From Dehalococcoidia bacterium (GTDB lineage: Bacteria; Chloroflexota; Dehalococcoidia; Bin125): a stretch of 64,000 bases of DNA. A program made the position numbers and the translations under genes. The number at the start of each line of letters is the position of its first letter. Within the stretch, counting starts at the first letter, position 1. Location of the stretch: NCBI GenBank assembly GCA_022828105.1, contig JAJEJC010000005.1:124001-188000 (forward strand), given 5' to 3'. The notes under the pieces are model-generated. The model searched no databases and had not been told where the DNA came from. It saw only the letters and a list, made by a program, of their open reading frames with translations. Of this stretch, positions 27,215-28,285 are shown piece after piece.

Positions 27215-28285
27215 ATGATTCGGACAATCCTGGCCCTCGCTCTCGGCGTCAGCGCAGTACTCGCTGTGCTCGCAGTGCTCACGCTGGCGCCGTTCAGCGG
27301 CGGCTCGTCTGCCACGTCTGCCGCCGCGCAGGACGCAACGTCTGTCCAGGTTCGCGCCAGGCTGGTTGCCAGCGGTTCGATCGAGTTCGGCCTGCGCGCA
27401 GGCGGACAGGACCTGACCCCGAGGGCGCGATTCTTCCCGGCGGGCGATCGGGTCACGAGTTGGCTGGTCAGCAGCCCGTTGGACCTGGCCAACGGCGCAG
27501 AGGTGCAGATCATCGCCCGGCGTCGCGCGAGTGGATCCGTTGAATTCGGCGTTCGCACGGTCGAATCGGGGCGGAGGTTCCTGCCCCGAGGTCGATTCTT
27601 CCCCGGCAACGCCACGGTGGGACGTTGGCTGATCAGCACCCCCGTGAGCATTCCCGCGCCCGATCCTCCGGTCGAACCGGAAGAGCAGGCCTCTGGGTCC
27701 CAGCCATCCGCTCCCGAGCAGTCCGACGAGTCAACCGAAAGCGTCGAGCGCATCTCCGGCGGACCTCGCGACGGGCTGATTGTTGAGGGCAACATCGTCG
27801 GCGACCCCGACGCGCCGGTGCTGATCGTCGAATACGGCGATCCGTTTTGACCAGAATGCCGCCGTATCGCGACTCAGGTTGAGCCGCGACTGATTGACGA
27901 GTACGTCCGCACCGGTATCGCCCGGTTCCAGTTCGTCAACATCGCCTACCTCGGCGCAGCGTCCGAGCGCGTCGGATACGCCATGGTCTGCGCCACGCAA
28001 CAAAGCGGCGCAGCCTTCTGGCAGTTCCATGATCGCTTCCTTGTAGACGGCATCCGAGCCACTTCTCGCGCACAGCTGATCGACTACGCAGGCGACATCG
28101 GCCTCGATACCGACAGCTTCACCAAGTGCTACGACGACCCTGCGACCCGCCAGAAGCACAATGACAACGTCAATGCAGCGCGGAGTATTGGCATCTCATA
28201 CGGCCCTCGGATTCATGTCAACGGAGTCAACTCCGGGAGAAGTTTCGAGAGCATTCGGCGACAGGTCGAAGCCGCGACTCGCTGA
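27215..28285 (+). CDS. Secreted DsbA-like thioredoxin-fold protein, probable selenoprotein (in-frame TGA at the active site)
   Basis: 356 residues if TGA at 27848-27850 is read as selenocysteine (residue 212). Without read-through only a 211-residue stub results. Residues 1-30 form a signal peptide or membrane anchor. Two imperfect repeats follow (about 45-92 and 97-146), each with an SGSIEFGLR/SGSVEFGVR-type strand and a RFFP turn, family unknown. After a Pro/Glu/Ser-rich linker the DsbA/Thioredoxin_4 domain begins DPDAPVLIVEYGDPF, then U-P-E-C, then RRIATQVEPRLIDEYV. TGA thus replaces the first Cys of CxxC, while the second Cys remains. Downstream of it the frame continues through the helical insertion (FWQFHDRFLVDGIRATS) to the cis-proline loop YGPRIHVNG. 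The role would be disulfide or selenenylsulfide exchange outside the cytoplasm. Start ATG at 27215. A nonsense mutation or base-call error cannot be excluded. Confidence 0.8.
27851..27888 (+). promoter_or_regulatory. Candidate bacterial SECIS element
   Basis: Just after the in-frame TGA, bases 27868-27888 can form CGCG-A-CTCA, loop GGT, TGAG-C-CGCG: two 4-base-pair stems with an A:C mismatch between them. The apical loop begins GG and lies 26 bases after the TGA. Bacterial SECIS models require a hairpin shortly downstream of UGA with a G among the first two loop bases; this one agrees. The hairpin sits inside the coding sequence, as bacterial SECIS elements do. Confidence 0.55.

Follow-up and report, generated by a model that had tools for sequence, protein, structure and literature searches.

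The selenoprotein gene and its product

The window, that is, the whole stretch of 64,000 nucleotides of Dehalococcoidia DNA analysed here, carries on its forward strand a gene at 27215-28285 that is predicted to encode a selenoprotein of 356 amino acids with selenocysteine (Sec) at residue 212. This assignment was deduced from the translation with TGA read as U, from Pfam matches, from the lengths of homologues and from an AlphaFold model. The in-frame TGA is located at 27848-27850 of the same strand, within the motif DPF-U-P-E-C; where homologues have Cys, the aligned residue is the leading one of their CxxC motif. When the TGA is read as Sec, 211 codons are continued by another 144 and the product has 356 residues, the gene being terminated by another TGA at 28283-28285 on the forward strand. 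The homologues have the same length after U as the window protein. Standard ORF calling splits the gene into two frames, 27215-27850 (211 aa) and 27983-28285 (100 aa), with the loss of the active-site region.

The protein consists of a hydrophobic N-terminus, a duplicated beta domain (residues about 40-150), a linker and a DsbA-like thioredoxin domain (about 190-355). The C-terminal half matched the Pfam families Thioredoxin_4 (PF13462; E 2.2e-18, 67.4 bits against a gathering threshold of 23.2) and DSBA (PF01323; E 6.2e-7, 29.8 bits against 25.6). The AlphaFold model (mean pLDDT 88) showed a DsbA fold in which Sec opens the UxxC element (U-P-E-C) and is placed directly before the first long helix of the DsbA-like domain (213-231), and a Foldseek search with this model gave BdbD, S. 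aureus DsbA and alpha-DsbA1 as the best solved relatives. No lipobox was recognised by eye in the first 40 residues of the window protein, and a search for a phage origin of the domain gave no match in the phage collection.

The N-terminal domain (27335-27664) is composed of two beta repeats of about 55 amino acids with the pattern asGsiEFg.r...PrgRfFP...vgrWLiS, modelled with a pLDDT of 93. The repeats gave no Pfam match and no significant fold match in the PDB. The domain is also present in dozens of TGA-free proteins from the genus, one of which, encoded shortly upstream of selB (L001 1-1485), combines it with RCC1-like repeats. It is an unrecognised domain, of modest novelty.

The hairpin downstream of the in-frame TGA

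The hairpin first described as a bacterial SECIS element (bSECIS) occupies positions 27868-27888 of the forward strand and was characterised by direct reading, alignment, covariation and ViennaRNA folding. Its 5' arm consists of CGCG (27868-27871), A (27872) and CTCA (27873-27876), its apical loop is GGT (27877-27879, forward strand), and its 3' arm consists of TGAG (27880-27883), C (27884) and CGCG (27885-27888). The stem thus comprises eight pairs in two blocks with a single A.C mismatch (A27872.C27884), and the apical loop lies 26 nt after the TGA. The bases, the loop and the spacing were found to be exactly those given in the preliminary description. The same hairpin was the minimum-energy structure calculated by ViennaRNA (-10.9 kcal/mol), with an extra U-A pair between 27867 and 27889, which makes nine pairs.

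The published bSECIS constraints are an apical loop of 3-9 nt with G as its first or second base, separated from the UGA by 16-37 nt, and a minimum free energy of -7.5 kcal/mol or lower (PMC13188914, Fig. 2 legend); an upper stem of 4-16 bp was applied here in addition. The window hairpin agrees with this consensus in position, loop size, G at the start of the loop, stem length and energy, so that the earlier statement on its fit to the bSECIS rules holds against these constraints. It differs from the consensus in the A.C mismatch of the window copy and in its core, which returns with nearly unchanged sequence in almost every Sec paralogue within the genus. A search of the whole window with Rfam at the gathering threshold gave no match, and hence the Rfam models miss the hairpin.

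Taken alone, the hairpin is weak evidence, because 523 of the 1662 TGA triplets counted over the two strands of the GC-rich 64-kb window (about 31%) passed a loose bSECIS rule and the single-sequence fold was no more stable than dinucleotide shuffles (z -0.27). For the same reasons single-sequence folding was rejected as a proof of a bSECIS. The preliminary description had held that the hairpin independently supports decoding of the TGA; both the bSECIS and Sec decoding are supported by the comparison of homologues, but the claim was overstated for the hairpin by itself. The high background and the z-score near 0 also agree with a rival explanation, in which a Cys gene in decay has acquired the TGA from TGC by nonsense mutation, or shows it through a sequencing error, and the hairpin has arisen by chance in GC-rich coding DNA.

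Conservation and covariation among TGA homologues

When 20 genomes belonging to the order were searched, TGA homologues turned up in the genus itself and in another two genera of the same family. The comparison set comprised 65 distinct homologous genes from 16 related genomes in an ungapped alignment, the relatives being Dehalococcoidia/Chloroflexota MAGs. All 65 genes have TGA at the aligned codon, and all keep the reading frame, a few extending beyond the fetched stretch. A TGA common to the genus and to two further genera, with the frame intact on both sides and conserved downstream, refutes the explanation by mutation or sequencing error, to which the stem covariation and the third-position constraint described below are likewise opposed; we regard its probability as negligible.

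In 64 of the 65 homologues the hairpin keeps its register, and the sole exception has a candidate hairpin at 21 nt. Every homologue has G as the first base of the loop, which reads GGU, GUU, GGC or GUC. Standard pairs were found in 93.1% of the stem cells, as against 27-38% when the 3' arm was slid by 1-3 columns. Compensatory changes on both sides occurred in four of the eight pairs and in 17 cells versus 1.4 in shuffles, a statistic whose significance is overstated by the shared ancestry of the homologues, the slid-arm comparison and those with the Cys homologues and SelD (see below) being the safer tests. RNAalifold recovered the same helix unprompted. The stem variants include CTCA-GGT-TGAG, CTCG-GTT-CGAG, CGCA-GTC-TGCG and CCCA-GGT-TGGG. 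The conserved core is formed by 27869-27876 paired with 27880-27887. The outermost pair, 27868-27888, is poorly conserved (paired in 37/65), and the position of the A.C mismatch in the window gene, 27872.27884, is unpaired in 20/65 homologues.

The covariance analysis of homologous genes that had been proposed for the hairpin therefore gave compensation in half of the pairs. TGA homologues with a stem neither conserved nor compensated, which had been named as the observation that would count against it, were looked for, and the hairpin was found to be kept in register, with compensation, in all but the one gene mentioned. It is this comparison of homologues that shows the hairpin to be more than a product of chance.

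Cysteine homologues and synonymous positions

In the Cys-coding homologues (n=73, several phyla) a mean of 3.0 of the 8 stem positions were paired, versus 7.5 of 8 in the Sec genes (n=52), and the mean folding energy over 42 nt was -6.9 versus -16.7. The hairpin is kept or compensated in TGA homologues and absent from Cys homologues, as expected of a bSECIS. Among 13 genes orthologous to the window gene, the six stem codons had a third-position entropy of 0.17 bits, as compared with 0.99 bits for the remaining codons at which the amino acid is conserved, and the stem was the six-codon window of lowest third-position entropy among those examined.

These data bear on the possibility that the hairpin is conserved through a protein constraint on the A-A/T-Q-V-E-P helix and not as an RNA structure. 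The peptide itself is conserved in the clade, as this would require, but the synonymous positions are quietest precisely in the stem codons, replacements such as QVE to RSE coincide with changes in pairing, and the Cys homologues encode other residues and have no stem. An origin of the conservation in the protein was already disfavoured by the covariation, and we consider it highly improbable.

Selenocysteine machinery and the decoding of the TGA

The genome encodes SelA, SelD, a SelB with winged-helix domains and a tRNA-Sec that scores over the family cut-off and has the anticodon TCA; it is therefore the genome of a Sec-decoding organism. This complete pathway is one argument against the alternative that TGA is read as Trp or Cys through a genome-wide change of code or a suppressor tRNA, the hairpin having another role. 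Cys is indeed the residue found at the Sec position in most of the distant homologues, which speaks for such a reading; on the other hand, TGA also serves as a stop, the hairpin is not kept in the Cys homologues, and an alternative code was rejected because TGA terminates the selenoprotein gene itself. The probability of this alternative is very small, although it is slightly greater than that of the other two.

The in-frame TGA is thus almost certainly decoded as Sec, a conclusion drawn from comparative sequence analysis. We are very confident that 27868-27888 is a bSECIS within the coding sequence of a DsbA-like redox protein, predicted to be exported, and that Sec would be inserted at the UGA via SelB. 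By analogy with SelB and SECIS of E. coli, bases 27868-27888 of the mRNA would fold into the bSECIS hairpin within the coding sequence, the C-terminal winged-helix domains of SelB would bind the G-containing apical loop, and SelB would deliver Sec-tRNA-Sec to the UGA 26 nt upstream of the loop. The ribosome would then insert Sec rather than stop, giving the 356-residue protein with its U-P-E-C active site.

Exported DsbA-like proteins exchange disulfides. The selenoprotein, with its predicted export and putative catalytic role, most likely carries out thiol/selenol-disulfide exchange outside the cytoplasmic membrane. Neither DsbB nor VKOR was found in the genome, and one CcdA/DsbD-type transmembrane protein was found; together these observations lean towards a reducing or isomerising role in preference to oxidation.

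Other Sec genes and the position of the hairpin

The SelD gene of the same genomes (L066 1531 onward; G000 C4:303510-304451) also contains an internal in-frame TGA, followed 32 nt later by the hairpin TGGCTCA-CGTGC-TGAGCCA, in which a T-A to G-C double change occurs in 3 of 10 aligned sequences. The arms of this hairpin match GGCTCA/TGAGCC of the DsbA-like genes, a sequence similarity which hints that SelB of this lineage may prefer a particular stem.

A covariance model built from the family found four strong sites in the genome, namely the window site and three sites in a tandem cluster of DsbA-like selenoprotein genes (G000 C4:375559-377814; L047, L155), each with a near-identical SECIS core. 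The cluster paralogues have lipobox-like N-termini, e.g., LAVACG, LIAACG and LLAACG. A fifth site of the model (L151, 23.7 bits) was discarded, being situated within an ordinary penicillin-binding-protein-like frame that has no Sec context. Most related genomes contain three or four DsbA-like selenoprotein genes in tandem, and for the majority of those searched the number of Sec copies is about four per genome.

In more distant TGA homologues from other Chloroflexota (L096, L098, L104, L113, L116, L124 and L138; L100 and L108) the UxxC element is kept and a candidate SECIS-like hairpin is found at another spacing, either about 29 nt after the UGA (CTGACGC-GGG-GCGTCAG, CTGGCGC-GTT-GCGCCAG) or about 17 nt after it (TCCCA-CGTGT-TGGGA, TCGCA-CGTGT-TGCGA), with paired differences between members. 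One could speculate, tentatively and with considerable doubt, that SelB favours GGCTCA/TGAGCC or covarying forms of it, which recur not only among the Sec-DsbA paralogues but also in SelD, an unrelated gene, and that within one family the hairpin has apparently moved among distances of about 17, 21, 26 and 29 nt. If this were true, the family would constitute a natural series for the study of SECIS relocation and of the reach of the SelB stem preference.

Relationship to known selenoproteins and significance

The best family match over the DsbA-like domain was NCBIfam NF041057 (Rcas_1661 family thioredoxin-like (seleno)lipoprotein; 118 bits, E 4.5e-34), and all 24 aligned homologues matched it. 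The equivalog cut-off of 190 bits was not reached by the window protein (118 bits; 113 bits for the domain alone), which, on sequence grounds, is related to this known selenoprotein family and lies below its cut-off. The family has been described as 'DsbG-like', with UxxC (PMC13188914). The window protein shares UxxC with it and differs in its additional duplicated beta domain at the N-terminus and in showing no evident lipobox (by eye). DsbA-like UxxC selenoproteins were also reported in the Sargasso Sea selenoproteome, where they were filed under COG2761 (PMC1088965). They resemble the window protein in the DsbA-like domain, the UxxC element and the downstream bSECIS, whereas its best Pfam family is Thioredoxin_4 and its closest fold BdbD. 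BdbD from Bacillus subtilis (PDB 3eu3) is the closest solved fold (TM 0.80 on target) and the closest by sequence, but contains CxxC in place of UxxC and is devoid of the N-terminal domain.

UxxC selenoproteins of the DsbA-like and DsbG-like types are thus already known (PMC1088965; PMC13188914; PMC1794560), and literature searches on selenoproteins in SAR202 and on the selenoproteome in Dehalococcoidia retrieved no paper. The novelties are modest and consist of the multiple Sec copies per genome (about four), the apparent movement of the hairpin between lineages and the N-terminal beta domain. The finding leaves the understanding of selenocysteine decoding unchanged. It corrects gene calls that would cut the family at its active site and offers a compact set of natural sequences in which SECIS covariation and relocation can be followed. 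To a Chloroflexota lineage it adds a group of redox selenoproteins that is represented by about four Sec copies in the majority of the related genomes searched.
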